A DNA stretch of 64,000 bases. Source: a virus. The position numbers were made by a program, and so were the translations under genes. Location of the stretch: positions 1 to 64,000 of IMG/VR virus record IMGVR_UViG_3300027754_000069; one strand, written 5' to 3'. Positions 17,856 through 36,066 of the stretch are shown one piece after another; positions within the stretch are counted from its first letter, which is position 1, and every line of letters starts with the position of its first letter. The notes under the pieces were generated by a model. The model did not search any database, was not told the DNA's origin, and saw only the letters and a list, made by a program, of their open reading frames with translations.

Positions 17856-19355
17856 CTACTTCTTCTTAATATTAACCTTTGTTCCAGACCAAATCATTGA
17901 GCCCTTCTTATACTTAGGGTCATTCATTAGTTTTGGATTGATTGCTCGTACTTCAGATACTGTAAGCCCAGCATTCTTTGCAATACCTGATAAGGTATCA
18001 CCCTTCTTTACTGTGTATTTAGTGGTAGAACCACCACCACCAACAGATGGCTTAGAAGCTGCACCTGCTGCTGGACGTGTTTTAGAACCAGCCTTATATG
18101 CTGCAGTTCCTGGCACTAAGCTTTCTCCGCCTTTGCCATAACGTAATTTCTTGTTTTGATTTTCTGCCTTTGTAATCTTTTTGTTAAGTTCGTCCATACG
18201 TTGACGACGAGTTTTGCCAACAAGACCCATAGTTGCAAGATTAGCAAGGTTGCTTGCTTGTGTTACAGCACCTTCTTTAGCTGACATTGGCTTATCACCA
18301 AGCTTTGCCTTAAGACGGTTAATTTCTTTAAGGTCTTTGAATGTTGAACCTTTACCAGCGGAAACAACTTCTCCAGCAACCATAGCTAATGGGAATTTTT
18401 TAGCTGCAAACTTAGCTACACGAAATGTACGTGAACTCTTCTTAGCAACCTTTACTGCTTTACCTTCTGGCTTAGCAGTTGCCCTAGCTTTTTCTGCTTG
18501 AGGAGTTTGTGTCTTGCCTTTAGCAGAGTTAGCAAGTGCCTTGTTCTTTGCAGCAACACGTGCCTTTGCTTCTTCAAGACCTTTAGCCTCGTTACGCTTT
18601 AAATCAGCAAGCGTTACACGCTTAGGAGCTTTTGCTTCTGGCTTAGATGCTGCTTTAGCTGCTGGCTTTTCCTTAAATAGATTTGGATTAGCTGCTTTGG
18701 CTGCCTCTGCTGGTGTCTTACCTGCAGCACGAGCTGCTTCGTAAGTTGAAGGTTTAGCACCTGGCTTATTTGACTTCCAGTTTCTACGTTCTTCTGGTGT
18801 CATCTTTGCCCATGCTGCTTTATTGGCAGCAGATTTTGTCATCTTTGGCGCATCAGCAGTTTTTGCTGGAGCTTGTGGCTTAGGCGCTGTAGCTTTCTTT
18901 GAAGTTGGCTTCTTAGCAGCTGGCTTCTTTGTGTCTGACATAATTTCTTCAGCACGAGCTTTAGATACAACCTTGCCATTTTCTACAAAAGACTTACCTT
19001 TAGCTGAAACGGTTGACTTCTTAGTCGTTGGCTTCTTAGGCGCTTCTGCTTCTGCAGGAGTAGCCTTCTTGCCACCGTACTCACCAAATTCATCCCGCAT
19101 GCTAGAACGAAACTTTTCACGTGCTGTTTTTTGAGTAGCTTCGTAATCAGATTTCTTGAGATATGCGTTTTTGCCAAGGTCTGTCTTAGCAGATTCTGAA
19201 ACTTCTTTAGCAACAATTCTATCTTCGGCACTAATTTTTAACTTAGGGTCACGTTTTGCTGCTTGTTTCTTACCAGGAAATGCTGCCTTAGCAGCAGGTT
19301 TGGCAGCCTGCTTTGCCTGCCGATACTTTCGTGTGGTTGCCTTTTTGGCTGCCAT
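17856..19355 (-). CDS. Lys/Ala-rich virion protein with C-terminal LysM (499 aa)
   Basis: Residues 1-330 are extremely rich in Lys, Ala and Pro (repeats such as KKPTTKKSTVSAKGK), resembling histone-like tails, and could bind packaged DNA. Around 400-425 is a VPGTAAYKAGSKTRP module, and residues about 450-497 form a LysM domain (YTVKKGDTLSGIAKNAGLTV). B's homologue (58,436-59,914, 492 aa) has the same architecture, but its LysM is of a different subtype and its VPGTAAY module sits instead in another protein (52,095-52,904). I infer a DNA-associated ejection protein with cell-wall affinity. Confidence 0.65.
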   Translation of the reverse strand: MAAKKATTRKYRQAKQAAKPAAKAAFPGKKQAAKRDPKLKISAEDRIVAKEVSESAKTDLGKNAYLKKSDYEATQKTAREKFRSSMRDEFGEYGGKKATPAEAEAPKKPTTKKSTVSAKGKSFVENGKVVSKARAEEIMSDTKKPAAKKPTSKKATAPKPQAPAKTADAPKMTKSAANKAAWAKMTPEERRNWKSNKPGAKPSTYEAARAAGKTPAEAAKAANPNLFKEKPAAKAASKPEAKAPKRVTLADLKRNEAKGLEEAKARVAAKNKALANSAKGKTQTPQAEKARATAKPEGKAVKVAKKSSRTFRVAKFAAKKFPLAMVAGEVVSAGKGSTFKDLKEINRLKAKLGDKPMSAKEGAVTQASNLANLATMGLVGKTRRQRMDELNKKITKAENQNKKLRYGKGGESLVPGTAAYKAGSKTRPAAGAASKPSVGGGGSTTKYTVKKGDTLSGIAKNAGLTVSEVRAINPKLMNDPKYKKGSMIWSGTKVNIKKK

Positions 19356-19868: not shown

Positions 19869-21626
19869 TTATGCTGGTATTTGACGAGTTACTCTTGCTG
19901 CAAGATTTGGGTTTCCACCGCCAGTTAGACCTGCAAGAAGTTCTTGCATTGCTGGACGTTGTTGTTGGAATTCTGGCGCACCCGCGCCACCCATACCCTG
20001 TTCTGGACCTGCGCCCATTCCAGATGCTTCTGGCATCTGAGGTTGTGCTGGTTCTGGCTTGAACGCTTTGGCAACCGCGTCTTCTAACGAGGTACCCTTT
20101 TTACGTTCGGCAATAACTGCAGCCATTTTTTCAACAATCTTCATTGGGTCTTGACCTTGCATTACCATTTGTGGAATTGCTTGAGCCATTGATGCAACTG
20201 ACGCCTTGAGGGAGTCACGCATCTCTTCAATATCAATTGCTCGCTCTTCTTCTCCAGCATTGAGCGAAATCGGTAGATTGCGACGTAGCATCCCACGAGA
20301 GATTAGCTTGTCACCACGAGCTTGTAGACCCCAGACAAGTGCTCGGTTAGGGTCTAGACCTGCCATTAATCCGTATTCAACAGTAACTCCATAGTTACCT
20401 ATGATGTCAGATGATGGCTTGTACTTTAACTTGTATGGAACTCCATTTGCTGTAGCAGATACTTCACGTGTTATGTTCTCGAAGAATGCTTCGTCTGTAG
20501 CAAATGCTAGTGAAATTGCTTGACCAATTGCTTCGCCAAGTACTGATTGAATAACTTTAATCTGTGAATCAAATCCAGCCATAAGTGCCTTGACACCTTG
20601 ACCAGTAACGATAGAACCTTCAGCTTGACCTGCACGTGCCTGTGGGAAACGAGTTCCCAACTTCATTTCATCGGCTAGGACATTGTTTTCCGCAAACGCG
20701 AACTGAGGTACATCCAGATTAATACGACGAATTTTCTCAGGGGAGTTAGAACGAATAACTGAATCAGGACCAACGGAAAGCTGAGTAACGTCATTAGGCA
20801 AAGCAAGAGGAGCTTCAACAGATTTTTGGACAGCTTCCATAGTAAGGAGAGCCAAACGTGCTTTCGCCGCGTAGACTGGTAGTACGTCGTCGAATGACCC
20901 TCGGACTTCGCCATCAAGCGAAGGACGCTGAGCAATTGCAACTGGGACTTTACCGATTTTGTTTTCTGTTTGTGCAAGTACTATTCCTCCACGTTCTGGA
21001 ATAAACATGACTGTTTGCTTCTTGTCTGACCAACGTACAACTTCAAGTAGCTGGTTGCTATCTCCACGAGAGAATGCACCTGTTTGTAGAATTTGATTAG
21101 CGTACTCAGGGAACTGAGCTGCTAAATCTCCCGCCTTACGATAGTAAGAACGAGCATAAACTTGGACATCGCCAAATCTATCAACGTCATAGTATGCACC
21201 CATGGAATTTTCAACATGGATGTGAGGACGTTTTTCTTTAAAGTTAGGTTCTACACGGAATACAACAAATCCGTATGTTGCCAACTGGTCTGCGCCACGC
21301 AGTAGTTCCGTTCCAAGACGAGATGATGCTACGTAGTAATTAGCAATCTTAGTTCTCTTGTCAGCCTTGGTACGCTGGTTATCATCGAGAGATGAATCGC
21401 CAGCAGCAGTAATGGTAGGTAGAACACCAGCTTGCTCAGATACATCACGAGCTACAACGTCGATAAGGTTAGCAATAATTGGTCGTGACCAATTTCCTTC
21501 TGGAAGCAACCCTTTGAATACTTGGTCTGCTTGTCCAGCACGAACTAAGGCAACATCGCGCATGCGCCTGTCGCGCTCGGAGTTTCTAGCTTTTAACTGT
21601 TCAAAAGCTTGTACAAGTTCTTTCAT
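19869..21626 (-). CDS. Portal protein (585 aa)
   Basis: Directly downstream of the large terminase, 585 aa, with features of podovirus portals: N-terminal VQAFEQLKARNSERDRRMRD, the WSRPIIANLIDVVARDVSEQ segment, a wing/stem region with KYKPSSDI(I/N)GNYGVTVEYGL and GMLRRNLPISLNAGEEERAI, and a Gln/Gly/Pro-rich C-terminal tail ending NLAARVTRQIPA. It forms the ring through which DNA enters and leaves the head. The B homologue (60,654-62,429) is about 90% identical; only the Pro/Gly-rich tail diverges. Confidence 0.85.
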   Translation of the reverse strand: MKELVQAFEQLKARNSERDRRMRDVALVRAGQADQVFKGLLPEGNWSRPIIANLIDVVARDVSEQAGVLPTITAAGDSSLDDNQRTKADKRTKIANYYVASSRLGTELLRGADQLATYGFVVFRVEPNFKEKRPHIHVENSMGAYYDVDRFGDVQVYARSYYRKAGDLAAQFPEYANQILQTGAFSRGDSNQLLEVVRWSDKKQTVMFIPERGGIVLAQTENKIGKVPVAIAQRPSLDGEVRGSFDDVLPVYAAKARLALLTMEAVQKSVEAPLALPNDVTQLSVGPDSVIRSNSPEKIRRINLDVPQFAFAENNVLADEMKLGTRFPQARAGQAEGSIVTGQGVKALMAGFDSQIKVIQSVLGEAIGQAISLAFATDEAFFENITREVSATANGVPYKLKYKPSSDIIGNYGVTVEYGLMAGLDPNRALVWGLQARGDKLISRGMLRRNLPISLNAGEEERAIDIEEMRDSLKASVASMAQAIPQMVMQGQDPMKIVEKMAAVIAERKKGTSLEDAVAKAFKPEPAQPQMPEASGMGAGPEQGMGGAGAPEFQQQRPAMQELLAGLTGGGNPNLAARVTRQIPA

Positions 21627-32142: not shown

Positions 32143-32790
32143 CTAATCGTCTAGTGCATTAATCAATGCTGTTAATGCTTGAGCTCCTTGGTCAGCAATT
32201 ATACTATTGATATCAGAATCAGGCGGTAACGACACGCGCATGGCTTGAGGTATTGCATCTACTAATCTGCGAGCCAAGTCCTGTCCTGGATTAGAACCAT
32301 CTTCTTTAACATCGTTATCTGTGGCTACAATTACTCTACCTATGCCATCAAAACAACGTGAGAAATAAGGCTTCCAAGCGTTAACGCCAGCAACAGCGAC
32401 AGCAGGATGCCCAGCAAGAGTAGCAGATATCGCATCAATCTCTCCTTCAACTATTAATACCTCCCTTACAGCATGAATGATTGCGTTGACATTATATAGA
32501 TGGTGCTTCTGACCAGTAGGTATCATGTACTTAGGGTCACCATCATCAATCCGACGGAACTTGAACCCGACAACACCAGCATTAGTAATATACGGAATAG
32601 ATAAATGCTTTTTAATTCTGTCTTCATGACCAGCAGCAGGTTCTTCCACGTAGCCCAACAGGAATTGTTGGGCGCCAGCAAGGATGCCACGCTTCTCAAG
32701 GTACGCCTCAGCTGGTGAACCAGCCAAAGAATTATGATAGGTGTGTGCTGCCTTTGTCCAGAGTTCAATGAGCTTAGGATTGGTTCTCAC
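32143..32790 (-). CDS. Primase catalytic half: TOPRIM protein (215 aa)
   Basis: The C-terminal half of a DnaG-type primase. Residues about 18-100 resemble the primase N-lobe (SPAEAYLEKRGI, then VVGFKFRRIDDGDPKYMIPT); the TOPRIM fold follows with EGE (Glu115, Glu117; IVEGEIDAISA) and DxD (Asp158, Asp160; VIVATDND). The zinc-binding half is encoded separately at 33,314-33,646, with the HslV-like gene between. It overlaps the HslV-like gene by four bases. It should make RNA primers for phage replication together with the separate zinc finger protein. Confidence 0.8.
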   Translation of the reverse strand: MRTNPKLIELWTKAAHTYHNSLAGSPAEAYLEKRGILAGAQQFLLGYVEEPAAGHEDRIKKHLSIPYITNAGVVGFKFRRIDDGDPKYMIPTGQKHHLYNVNAIIHAVREVLIVEGEIDAISATLAGHPAVAVAGVNAWKPYFSRCFDGIGRVIVATDNDVKEDGSNPGQDLARRLVDAIPQAMRVSLPPDSDINSIIADQGAQALTALINALDD

Positions 32791-33347
32791 TTCTTCTCCT
32801 GTCTATGTGTAATGAATGGAGGCGCAGTATACACATCATTACGAGCAGCAATCTGCATTGCTTGCTTCCATGTTGCCCCGCCTGCCAGTGCGCCAAGAGC
32901 CCATGATGAGCCAGACCCTATCCCATACAGACCATCGTCACGCAGGTATACAGAATAGTTATCATCTACTTGGTAGATGGTGCCGTTGATTGCTAATAAA
33001 AATTCAAACCCAGCATCCTCGTCATCCTTACTTGGGGTATAGCCAGAATCTTTGATGCACTCTCTCATGCTAGGTACAACTGTTGTAATCATAAAATGAT
33101 ATTCATCTTTAATGTTAGCTGGGATAGTTGGTGGTTTCCACACGTGCTGCATCACATCGCATGGTTGTACGTCACCAGCACCAGCAACCAACCACTTGCC
33201 ACGTTTAGTTATCTTAGTAACTATCGGATGCGAGAATGGTCTACCGCCTGCGGTAGTACGTGAGTCGGCTGCAAATATGCAGCCGTTGTCTTGTTGGATA
33301 CCAATGATAGTTGTCACAGTGAAGCCCTCAATCTTGGTGGCGTCCAA
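32787..33347 (-). CDS. HslV/proteasome beta-like Ntn hydrolase (186 aa)
   Basis: Residues 12-60 align with HslV and proteasome beta subunits: T-T-I-I-G-I (candidate catalytic Thr12), AADSRTTAGG (Asp28, equivalent to Asp17 of the family), Lys45 near the position of Lys33, and LVAGAGD (53-59) in the usual turn. A later GIGSGSSWALGA matches the conserved Gly-Ser-Gly region. An 11-residue propeptide would be removed to expose Thr12. It is encoded between the two halves of the primase and overlaps both. No ATPase partner (HslU-like) was found, so it would act alone or with a host unfoldase. Confidence 0.8.
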   Translation of the reverse strand: MDATKIEGFTVTTIIGIQQDNGCIFAADSRTTAGGRPFSHPIVTKITKRGKWLVAGAGDVQPCDVMQHVWKPPTIPANIKDEYHFMITTVVPSMRECIKDSGYTPSKDDEDAGFEFLLAINGTIYQVDDNYSVYLRDDGLYGIGSGSSWALGALAGGATWKQAMQIAARNDVYTAPPFITHRQEKK

Positions 33348-33646
33348 CGCCCACTTGACTTCTTACGTCCACGAGTTGGAGCAGACTGCTGTGATTCCTT
33401 GCCAATGTTTTTCTCTGCCCACTTACGAGCTTCTGGGTATGTTAGCTTCTCACGAGCCATGATTATCTGTATACCAGAACCACTTCCGCTACATGCATAA
33501 CATACCCAGACGCCCTTGTCTGAGTTTACTGAAGCAGACTTACGTGAGTCGTCATGTACAGGACACAAGATTGATTTCTCCCCGCCAAGTGGCAAGGTCA
33601 ATCCGTAATGACTGAAGACTGCTTCTAAAAACTCAGACTGATTCAT
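33314..33646 (-). CDS. Primase zinc-binding half: CHC2 protein (110 aa)
   Basis: An N-terminal primase fragment with a CHC2 zinc finger: C-x2-H (Cys28, His31; ILCPVHDD) and C-x2-C (Cys49, Cys52; WVCYACSGSG), followed by a helix with YPEARKWAEKN. This domain recognises the template start site. Normally it is fused to the TOPRIM core; here it is a separate gene, first in a three-gene block, with the HslV-like gene separating it from the TOPRIM gene. The C-terminus is Arg/Lys-rich. Confidence 0.8.
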   Translation of the reverse strand: MNQSEFLEAVFSHYGLTLPLGGEKSILCPVHDDSRKSASVNSDKGVWVCYACSGSGSGIQIIMAREKLTYPEARKWAEKNIGKESQQSAPTRGRKKSSGRWTPPRLRASL

Positions 33647-33649
33647 TTG

Positions 33650-34027
33650 TTAATACCAATTCCTTTCCTGGTGGAACCTGTACGCCCCGCACCAAGTGTC
33701 ATAACGATGAAGCACATACTTGTGTGCCTCCTGAGTCTGTTTGAGTATAGACCAATGAGGTTTCCCCCATAGTAGCTGCCATACTCCACGTGCTCCACTC
33801 GATTTGTTGAATGAATCCGTGTTGTAGCGACTCTCTTTGTACGCAATACGTTTTGCACATAGTCGCTGCTCTTTCTCGGTTACGAACTGAGCAATTGCAT
33901 ACTCCACCTTCTGCTCTTTTGTCATTACTGACATACGAACTTCTTGTGTGAGTATGGGTGACAACGCTTGTGCTGGTGAAACCAGCGCCATCGCTGTTGC
34001 TATGCCCATCGTTATCGCTAACCGCAT
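33650..34027 (-). CDS. Secreted lytic transglycosylase-like protein (125 aa)
   Basis: The start MRLAITMGIATAMALVSPAQ is a good signal peptide (cleavage likely near residue 21). The mature part has the SLT signature: catalytic Glu65 (IAYKESRYNTDSFN), then SSGARGVWQLL as the G-x-x-G-x-x-Q motif. It should cleave peptidoglycan outside the membrane. It is not in the lysis cassette but in the replication operon, directly upstream of the primase block. It may open the wall at late infection, help exclude other phages or be a virion component. Confidence 0.75.
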   Translation of the reverse strand: MRLAITMGIATAMALVSPAQALSPILTQEVRMSVMTKEQKVEYAIAQFVTEKEQRLCAKRIAYKESRYNTDSFNKSSGARGVWQLLWGKPHWSILKQTQEAHKYVLHRYDTWCGAYRFHQERNWY

Positions 34028-34065: not shown

Positions 34066-34419
34066 TCACTGATGTCCATTGTAACCTGCCTGTTTAAGCA
34101 GATTCACCCAGAGTTCCGCAGGCATTACTGCATACGACTCTGAGATATTAGAAGTGCCACGCTTCTTGATTAACACAACGCCTGTCTCTGCATCGGCATG
34201 TGTCATCTCATTCTCCAGTTCCCGAAGATACTGAGGAATTCTAATTGCTTTCTCATTCTTACATTCTATAACCACACCATTGATACCGTCAATATCTCCG
34301 ACATCATCGTGTCTGCCTGCACCATATGCGCGTTCAGCGCATGGATAGCCCATGGTTACTAACCACTTAACTACATCACGTTCGTACTGTGAGCCTTTAC
34401 GTTTAGCTGCTGATGTCAT
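34066..34419 (-). CDS. Holliday junction resolvase, archaeal Hjc/PD-(D/E)XK type (117 aa)
   Basis: A 117-aa nuclease with Glu13 in a basic N-terminal helix (KGSQYERDVVKWL), GDIDGINGVVIECKNE carrying the PD-(D/E)XK-type acidic residues (Asp42/Asp44, Glu52) and Lys54, and QYLRELENEMTHADA. This is the Hjc-like fold used by phages to resolve branched replication DNA. It overlaps the WhiB gene by 4 bases. Confidence 0.8.
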   Translation of the reverse strand: MTSAAKRKGSQYERDVVKWLVTMGYPCAERAYGAGRHDDVGDIDGINGVVIECKNEKAIRIPQYLRELENEMTHADAETGVVLIKKRGTSNISESYAVMPAELWVNLLKQAGYNGHQ

Positions 34420-34685
34420 ACGTAATCTCCTGGTATCAATGAGTCTAGTTTTATATTTAACTTACGACGTATCTTCATTCTTTCACGTGGTGTCAATCCA
34501 CCCCATAGACCATACCCTTCATGGAGTACTGCCCAGTCAAGACATTCTTTCTTTACTTGACAACCAGAACATATTTTTTTACCAAAGGAATACATTGATG
34601 TATCACCTTCGTTCTCAGAATCTGGGTAAAAAAAATCGCTACCAACTTCTCTGCACTGACCACGTGATAGGTCTGGCATACGCAT
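34416..34685 (-). CDS. WhiB-family transcription regulator (89 aa)
   Basis: The four Cys of the 4Fe-4S cluster are present (Cys11, Cys39, Cys42, Cys48), followed by the diagnostic GLWGG (59-63) and an Arg/Lys-rich C-terminal segment (TPRERMKIRRKL). WhiB proteins occur only in Actinobacteria and their phages, so this gene gives the host phylum. Phage WhiB proteins are thought to bind host sigma factor or act against host WhiB regulators. Co-transcription with a sigma-like gene fits transcription takeover. Confidence 0.9.
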   Translation of the reverse strand: MRMPDLSRGQCREVGSDFFYPDSENEGDTSMYSFGKKICSGCQVKKECLDWAVLHEGYGLWGGLTPRERMKIRRKLNIKLDSLIPGDYV

Positions 34686-34857: not shown

Positions 34858-35242
34858 TCTTTAATTCTTTCATCACATCTAATAGGTTCTCTACCGTAAT
34901 CAGATAGCCCTTGCTTCTATTCGGTGGTATCTCACAAGTAATCTCTCGACCAAACTTTTTAATTGCATACAACACATGACCAGTTGGAACCATGAGCACA
35001 CCACGTTCAAGTACGAACGCCCAGTATGCAGCTTTAGTTACCATCACACCTGACGGTTCCCAATTCTGGGAACGTCGATACCAGCATTCAACTTCTATAT
35101 ATAGGTTATTGGTTGACCACCATTTGCGGTCACGTTTAACTTCTACTGTGCCACCTTCGGTCAGTAGTTGATTTACTAGTGACTCGCCTTCTTGACCAAA
35201 TCTAAAATCTAAATCAAATGACGATAGATTTTCTACTGCCAT
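34850..35242 (-). CDS. PD-(D/E)XK nuclease-like protein (130 aa)
   Basis: A 130-aa protein with a nuclease-like core: FGQEGESLVNQLLTEGG, then VEVKRDRKWWSTNNLYIEVE, where Glu-x-Lys and a following Glu are spaced as in PD-(D/E)XK folds. A C-terminal helix (VENLLDVMKELKND) follows. It lies between the ATPase and the small 53-aa gene. It is probably a DNA-processing enzyme of the replication operon; a degenerate non-catalytic version cannot be excluded. Confidence 0.55.
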   Translation of the reverse strand: MAVENLSSFDLDFRFGQEGESLVNQLLTEGGTVEVKRDRKWWSTNNLYIEVECWYRRSQNWEPSGVMVTKAAYWAFVLERGVLMVPTGHVLYAIKKFGREITCEIPPNRSKGYLITVENLLDVMKELKND

Positions 35243-36066
35243 TGCGATAACGTTCTTGCTCTATGTAAATCAGATGGAGAGTTGTAAAGAACCATCTTGC
35301 TTGCTTCCGCCGATAAAGTTACATAGCTTTCTGCAGTTGGGTCTGCCTTGCCATGTCTGTTCTTTACAACAGCAACTCGATAATTAGAGGAAGCACTATC
35401 CAGAGCCACCGAAAGGACCAACTCTGGTAGTGCTGCCACCTTACCCATCAATGCTTTACGTGGTGCTGGGTAGTTCGGCTTAGACATCTTCTCATTCTCG
35501 GAAACGTGGTGCAGGACGATGAATGCCGATTCATACTCACGAGCCATGTAGTGAAACGCTGACATGGCATCGCGTAGTGCAGTCCACTCGTTATCACTTG
35601 CGGATGCTACGTTCATTAAGTTGTCTACATATACAGCAGTAGGTGCCGAACCATGCAATTCAATCCACGCTTCTATCTCCTCTTCAATGTCTTGAAGAGA
35701 AGGTGCTGGGTCGAACGCGAATCGTACATGGTCGGCACCTTCCGCTAGCGCATCCTCAAGGAGAACGCTTGCTTCGGTATCCATCAATCTTTCTACATCA
35801 GCAACATCTTTATTCATAAGTATTGCACCAGCGCGAGTAGCGATGGTACGTGAATCAGAGTCAGCTGATATATATAACGACGGAACCTTAGATGTAATTG
35901 CGTACCATAATGCAAGTAGTGTCTTACCTCCGCCTGGTTGACCAGCGACCAAATGCAATTGCGCTTGGCGAAAGACAACTTGACTGGCTGTGAGTTGAGG
36001 CAGGATTTCTGGTAGTTGATGACCAACTGGTGACTCGACACCCACTACTTGCAAGAGGCTACGCAC
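35233..36066 (-). CDS. DnaB/RecA-type ATPase, replicative helicase-like (277 aa)
   Basis: Walker A at 41-49 (AGQPGGGKT), an acidic turn at SADSDSRT, Walker B near 144-148 (AVYVD), a Gln/His-type sensor region (FIVLHHVSENEK) and a C-terminal beta segment (YRVAVVKNRHG). This is the RecA-like core of DnaB/KaiC-type helicases, without the usual N-terminal primase-binding domain. With the separate primase proteins downstream it should form the phage replisome. It overlaps the 158-aa gene by one base. Confidence 0.8.
   Translation of the reverse strand: MRSLLQVVGVESPVGHQLPEILPQLTASQVVFRQAQLHLVAGQPGGGKTLLALWYAITSKVPSLYISADSDSRTIATRAGAILMNKDVADVERLMDTEASVLLEDALAEGADHVRFAFDPAPSLQDIEEEIEAWIELHGSAPTAVYVDNLMNVASASDNEWTALRDAMSAFHYMAREYESAFIVLHHVSENEKMSKPNYPAPRKALMGKVAALPELVLSVALDSASSNYRVAVVKNRHGKADPTAESYVTLSAEASKMVLYNSPSDLHRARTLSQWQ

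Follow-up and report, generated by a model that had tools for sequence, protein, structure and literature searches.

The window analysed here, a stretch of 64,000 nucleotides of viral DNA, encodes a phage peptidase of the proteasome type, with an active site that is complete judging from conserved residues and a predicted four-layer Ntn hydrolase fold, in a gene lodged between the two halves of a split DnaG-type primase. Comparison with related phages indicates that this peptidase probably serves as an accessory tool in its own right rather than as a component of the primase. With modest confidence, we favor the view that it is a trans-acting accessory enzyme akin to HslV and to BPH (beta-proteobacterial proteasome homologue), both of group I, in a phage of freshwater actinobacteria.

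The phage, its split primase and the peptidase gene

The record that contains the window (G000; 82,688 bp) is made up of two phages, related at 65-90% identity, placed end to end, head to tail. A separate contig of 40,624 bp matches positions 1-40597 at 100% identity, and another of 39,061 bp matches positions 43652-82688 at 99.98-99.995%, with the junction near 40.5-40.8 kb. This structure is likely a joined assembly, and with the two halves joined, the window comprises the first phage in full and the second in part; the arrangement of primase and peptidase genes is found again in the second half of the record, near 74.2-75.7 kb. The window phage is largely colinear with the cultured Planktophila phage E7, which is described along with phage F5 in PMC10202952, and the two share homologous genes for TerL (46% identity), portal (43%), head, primase and other proteins. 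The homology to E7 and F5, together with a WhiB-like gene, points to freshwater, Nanopelagicales-like actinobacteria as the hosts. The relevant features are as follows, in window coordinates:

33314..33646, minus strand: CHC2 zinc-finger half of the split DnaG-type primase, 110 aa (Pfam PF01807, Zn_ribbon_DnaG, 2.1e-11; phrog_360 "DNA primase", 3.1e-24)
32787..33317, minus strand: proteasome-like peptidase, 176 aa, mature N terminus TTIIG (phrog_1040, start-codon analysis, structure model and dN/dS, all detailed below)
33315..33317, minus strand: corrected peptidase start codon GTG (position conserved in 274 homologues)
33318..33347, minus strand: rejected N-terminal extension from TTG 33347, over the last CHC2 codons (in-frame TAG in several homologues; needed by none)
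32787..32790, minus strand: 4-bp GTGA overlap of the peptidase stop and the TOPRIM GTG start (sequence reading)
32143..32790, minus strand: TOPRIM half of the split primase, 215 aa (Toprim_3, 1.9e-8; phrog_47 "DNA primase", 3.8e-31)
34416..34685, minus strand: WhiB-like gene, marker of an actinobacterial host (PF02467, 4.6e-14)
35233..36066, minus strand: RecA/DnaB-like ATPase of the replication module, not HslU/ClpX-like (PF13481, 4.1e-11)
19869..21626, minus strand: portal protein of the first phage copy (phrog_104, 3.3e-33; 43% identity to the E7 portal)

The three central genes, all of them real, follow each other on the minus strand in the order CHC2, protease, TOPRIM. The Pfam and PHROG matches and the organization of the relatives bear out the original prediction of a DnaG-type primase divided into two genes, and place the window primase in the split actinophage class in which the CHC2 zinc finger and TOPRIM are encoded by separate, neighboring genes. 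By the evidence of a tblastn search with the TOPRIM half, which matched 1453 phage records, nearly all of them from actinophages and 935 from Mycobacterium phages, the split primase is standard in actinophages, where the uninterrupted form is common. Thus, genes 59/58 of Mycobacterium phage IronMan encode CHC2 and TOPRIM separately, the latter being about 42% identical to that of the window, but these two genes overlap directly, with none between them, whereas in the window they are parted by the protease. Just upstream of CHC2, a 125-aa ORF (33650-34027) appears by eye to be lytic transglycosylase/lysozyme-like (ESR...GVWQLLW); a Pfam search with it yielded no match, and it is a possible lysis gene within the replication module.

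The peptidase had originally been read as a 186-aa protein that starts at TTG 33347 (ORF 32787-33347) and processes itself at Thr12, which implies an 11-residue propeptide. This start has to be discarded. Apart from it, the sole start in the vicinity is the GTG of codon 11 (33317), with the product MTTIIG..., and three observations rule out the TTG: the GTG overlaps the CHC2 stop codon by 4 bp (GTGA 33314-33317, with the A of TGA at 33314); in several close relatives the reading frame is closed by a TAG six codons ahead of the start adjacent to Thr1; and in 274 of 274 related genes the codon preceding Thr1 is a start codon (ATG in 222, GTG in 47, TTG in 5). With translation starting immediately ahead of Thr1, the protein has no propeptide and does not need to cleave itself. 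As a general rule, the initiator methionine is removed from Met-Thr N termini, and a host methionine aminopeptidase would expose Thr1 in this way. The location of the gene between CHC2 and TOPRIM stands, as do its overlaps with both, although with the corrected start these are ordinary stop/start overlaps of just 4 bp each.

Family, active site and predicted fold

The best match in profile searches is PHROG 1040, "peptidase HslV family" (1.1e-26 over residues 9-185 of the 186-aa ORF). The Pfam Proteasome model PF00227 (E 7e-4; 19.2-19.7 bits, just under its gathering score of 22.4 bits) matches 75 of the 80 members of our set A5 at E<=0.01, and it was the sole Pfam match of the window protease, with none to S78, S14/ClpP or S49. 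With the curated NCBIfam HslV models the window protein scores 14.8-15.2 bits against cut-offs of 157.75 and 137, so that it is proteasome-like and yet is not filed as HslV. A phage-only profile matches BPH (8.7e-13) and HslV (1.3e-12) nearly equally well. The PADLOC profiles of anti-phage defence did not match the window protease. A first scan of bacterial genomes found no relatives of the protease, and a second detected only proteins with Ser1, 25-28% identical, in Planctomycetota and one gammaproteobacterium; a recent host origin of the gene is thus without support here.

All elements of the proteasome-type active site, that is, the N-terminal Thr1 with Asp17, Lys33 and the oxyanion Gly47, are present in the window protein. 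Across 76 clusters, Thr1, Thr2, Asp17, Lys34 (the equivalent of Lys33, with a one-residue shift), Gly47, Gly133 and Gly135 are invariant. The catalytic residues of the original prediction, Thr12, Asp28 and Lys45, are indeed there and correspond to Thr1, Asp17 and Lys34 in mature numbering; none of the clusters lacks the catalytic threonine. The AlphaFold2 model built with an 80-row alignment (pLDDT 92.1, pTM 0.88), which we used in place of one from a shallow alignment of 23 close relatives (pLDDT 47), has 891 matches in the PDB at E<=0.001 in a Foldseek search, the best being BPH (5ovs, TMq 0.78), followed by HslV, Anbu and 20S beta subunits; Foldseek also matches many phage HslV-like predictions. 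In this model, helices 49-57 and 71-89 occupy the H1/H2 place, and the protease alone is predicted to adopt the proteasome-type four-layer Ntn fold, which, together with the profile matches and the catalytic residues, upholds the earlier identification of an HslV/proteasome-like Ntn hydrolase. Among six relatives, the mean dN/dS of the protease is 0.071 (TOPRIM 0.076, CHC2 0.126), a value that indicates maintenance of the gene by purifying selection.

Variable genomic position and history

The original prediction took the layout as a sign that the protease is made in fixed ratio with the primase and may process it, and called for a survey of related phages for the same gene order. The result of this survey is mixed. 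The order CHC2-protease-TOPRIM is found at 102 loci on about 80 different contigs, some of which are counted twice, and with such recurrence the arrangement is not due to chance. Other relatives differ in order or lack the protease. In a sister group, the order is CHC2-TOPRIM-protease; on one contig (L392) the protease follows TOPRIM at a distance of about 370 bp; and in two others (G013 and L393) it lies upstream of the primase, flanked by the RecA/DnaB-like gene and a nuclease gene. In E7 and F5, and at 71 further loci, the protease is located directly downstream of the portal gene (in F5 by synteny with E7), and in both cultured phages there is an uninterrupted split primase, with overlapping matches to CHC2 and TOPRIM, 27 kb away from the protease in the case of E7. 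In a sample selected on the head protein rather than the protease, the gene is present in 9 of the 13 records of at least 30 kb. A close relative, G010 (TerL 71% and portal 68% identical), has no protease, and its CHC2 and TOPRIM genes are adjacent with a 3-bp gap, which represents an empty site; G016 likewise combines a split primase with the absence of the protease. Both are near-full-length as judged from the length of the contigs and, for G010, also by a gene running across both ends, and therefore the function of the protease is dispensable for some phages. These context assignments come from profiles built from few sequences and from viral contigs that are mostly fragments.

Given that the protease varies in position or is absent in relatives, the layout lends no support to primase processing, and a fixed ratio is at odds with split primases that lack the protease (in G010 and the mycobacteriophages) and with proteases located after the primase, upstream of it or 27 kb away. 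We also dropped the idea of strict linkage between the two, on account of the portal position in E7 and F5, the empty site in G010 and the absence of the gene from G016. The more distant members of the family have mixed neighbors (subtilase, DpdA, phosphoesterase, methyltransferase), so that the wider family offers no clue from context. Related genes are present in other actinophages, namely, Microbacterium phage Pumpernickel and Actinomycetia phage DSL-LC01.

Several side observations concern these loci. Contigs L044 and L094 contain an extra 71-aa ORF between the protease and TOPRIM (6528-6743 in L044), which is a further sign that this junction accepts genes. Another viral contig, L178, carries two divergent HslV-like genes on opposite strands (670-1209, plus; 2264-2809, minus) and, between them, an ORF that, as read from its translation, is small-heat-shock-protein-like. 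In the window phage, the slot after the portal, which holds the orthologous protease in E7-type phages, is taken by ORFs of 107 and 499 aa; the 499-aa product (17856-19355) is a Lys/Ala-rich protein with a C-terminal match to an endolysin/transglycosylase profile.

In the phylogenetic tree, the protease copies from replication modules form one clade (100/99) that neighbors copies located next to the portal gene, and another portal-adjacent group branches outside. The simplest explanation of this topology is a single transfer from the head into the replication module with later rearrangements nearby; as the tree has no fixed root, a move the other way is a less simple alternative. The window CHC2 and TOPRIM are closest to those of L013-type phages (96-97%), and the window protease is closer to that of L010-type (96%) than of L013-type phages (90%), which suggests allele exchange of the protease gene.

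A second proteasome-like gene (MTIIVGIAHDGK...), whose product matches the window protein at 29 of 162 positions (about 18% identity), was detected in G012 (L385:2335-2853) and 15 other contigs (L398-L413 range), within replication modules with the same split primase. In these 16 contigs it mostly follows TOPRIM directly, lying once upstream of a nuclease gene and once after a MazG-like gene. Between G012 on the one hand and E7 and the window on the other, the TerL, portal and head proteins share 43-62% identity; the protease being far more divergent than these shared genes, the second lineage is probably a separate acquisition, with an extremely diverged orthologue as the less probable alternative. 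Its placement at the same site would fit selection for an early-expressed peptidase there.

Function and comparison with known systems

The empty site, the mobility of the protease and the uninterrupted split primases of E7, F5 and the mycobacteriophages all speak for independence from the primase, and an accessory peptidase is the reading best supported. In the mechanism we envisage, the subunits would form a self-compartmentalized ring, by analogy with BPH or HslV, that acts in trans early in infection, either clearing and recycling unfolded host and phage proteins or removing a specific host factor. The peptidase might work unaided, as seems to be the case for BPH, or together with a host ATPase. 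The site in the primase operon would provide early co-expression through 4-bp translational coupling, and this, rather than processing of the primase, would be the reason for the location. Several observations go against the accessory role. The placement of two lineages next to the primase could equally mean a functional tie to the primase or replisome, the late head-module location in E7-type phages is at odds with an exclusively early role, and some phages, as the two near-full-length relatives show, can do without the gene.

Such a tie, in the specific form of processing or regulation of the split primase or replisome by the peptidase at a dosage set by the operon layout, was the original proposal, and the direct overlaps at the 102 loci and the arrival of the 18%-identical lineage beside the same primase are in its favor. 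We nevertheless regard it as quite improbable because more than 900 Mycobacterium phage records, as well as G010 and G016, have a split primase without the protease, because the E7 protease resides 27 kb off, beside the portal, and because the position relative to the primase varies even inside the replication clade. The portal-adjacent location itself invites another interpretation, namely, that the enzyme represents a new structural type of head-maturation (prohead) protease that in window-type phages has been relocated and acts in trans on scaffold or ejection proteins. The terL-portal-HslV order at about 70 loci, with the gene right after the portal in E7-type phages, is what this would entail, and portal-adjacent genes branch on both sides of the primase clade in the tree. 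No S78, ClpP-type or S49 protease was found in 10 related records (G000-G007, E7 and F5), and DSL-LC01, in which the gene is elsewhere, does have S78. We still consider this unlikely, given that alignments of the major head proteins begin at residue 1 and show no delta domain at the N terminus, that the near-full-length G010 and G016 share the head genes yet lack the protease, and that a move to the replication module breaks late co-expression. We know of no head-maturation protease with a proteasome fold.

The two locations could be reconciled if a head-maturation protease with this fold operates in E7-type phages and the window-type copy, after moving to the primase operon, acquired an early function, at a site also used by the second lineage; we give this scenario only a slim chance. 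If true, the two separate recruitments to a place next to this primase would point to a genuine, as yet unrecognized requirement for proteasome-like proteolysis in phage replication. Finally, the protease might assemble with or disrupt a host system, pairing with an unfoldase (Mpa/ARC, ClpX or ClpC) or acting as a decoy or poison of the actinobacterial 20S proteasome, and so redirect degradation during takeover. The related genes in Pumpernickel and DSL-LC01 are compatible with this possibility, as is the lack of a match to a phage-encoded unfoldase. In line with the original prediction, no unfoldase gene was found: PF07724 (AAA_2) was absent from the 82.7-kb record and from 7 related phage records, 8 in total. 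The conservation of the active site argues against a pure decoy, a literature search for a Nanopelagicales proteasome found no paper, and we rate this explanation as improbable.

The accessory peptidase is of interest beyond this phage. The genes analysed here form a large clade of stand-alone proteasome homologues in phages of a highly abundant order of freshwater bacteria, and the relocation between head and replication modules, combined with the second lineage at the same site, provides positional clues that were previously missing for phage proteasome homologues, known so far essentially from sequence. With orthologues in the cultured phages E7 and F5 and a cultured host strain, LanE-43, the function is experimentally testable.

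Among characterized enzymes, BPH (PDB 5ovs, 5ovt, 5ovu) gives the best full-length profile match, nearly equalled by HslV, and the best fold match; it has a proteasome-type active site and, like the window protein, has no dedicated unfoldase known; the two differ in that they share only about 21% identity and that the window protein is phage-encoded and known here from its gene and a predicted monomer. With HslV (ClpQ) of HslVU it has in common a compact subunit starting with MTTI, the same catalytic residues and the GSG motif, but it falls far short of the curated HslV cut-offs (about 15 bits against 137-158), and HslU was not found in the phage, although the host may supply one. Fuchs, Alva and Lupas (2021) have described the phage-carried homologues PPH and AAH and reported that propeptides are confined to proteasome beta and HslV, that AAA+ partners are lacking, that gene contexts are uninformative and that no AAH was found in Actinobacteria-specific phages (PMC8665760). 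The window protein resembles PPH, AAH and CPH as a group I proteasome-like phage gene product without AAA+ partner or propeptide; however, PPH has about 140 residues and lacks helix H2, whereas the window protein, at 175 mature residues, possesses both helices of the first pair, and unlike AAH, the window clade resides in phages of actinobacteria (PMC8665760). The part of the report on Salmonella jumbo phage pSal-SNUABM-04 available to us describes two HslV genes without HslU, a further phage HslV that lacks its partner, albeit in a jumbo phage with another host and two copies, and mentions no link to a primase (PMC7823757). The lack of an unfoldase, which had been called unusual, is therefore precedented (PMC8665760; PMC7823757). 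Phage proteasome-like enzymes as such are already known; what is new is the actinophage clade, the shift of its gene between modules and the presence of a second lineage at that site.
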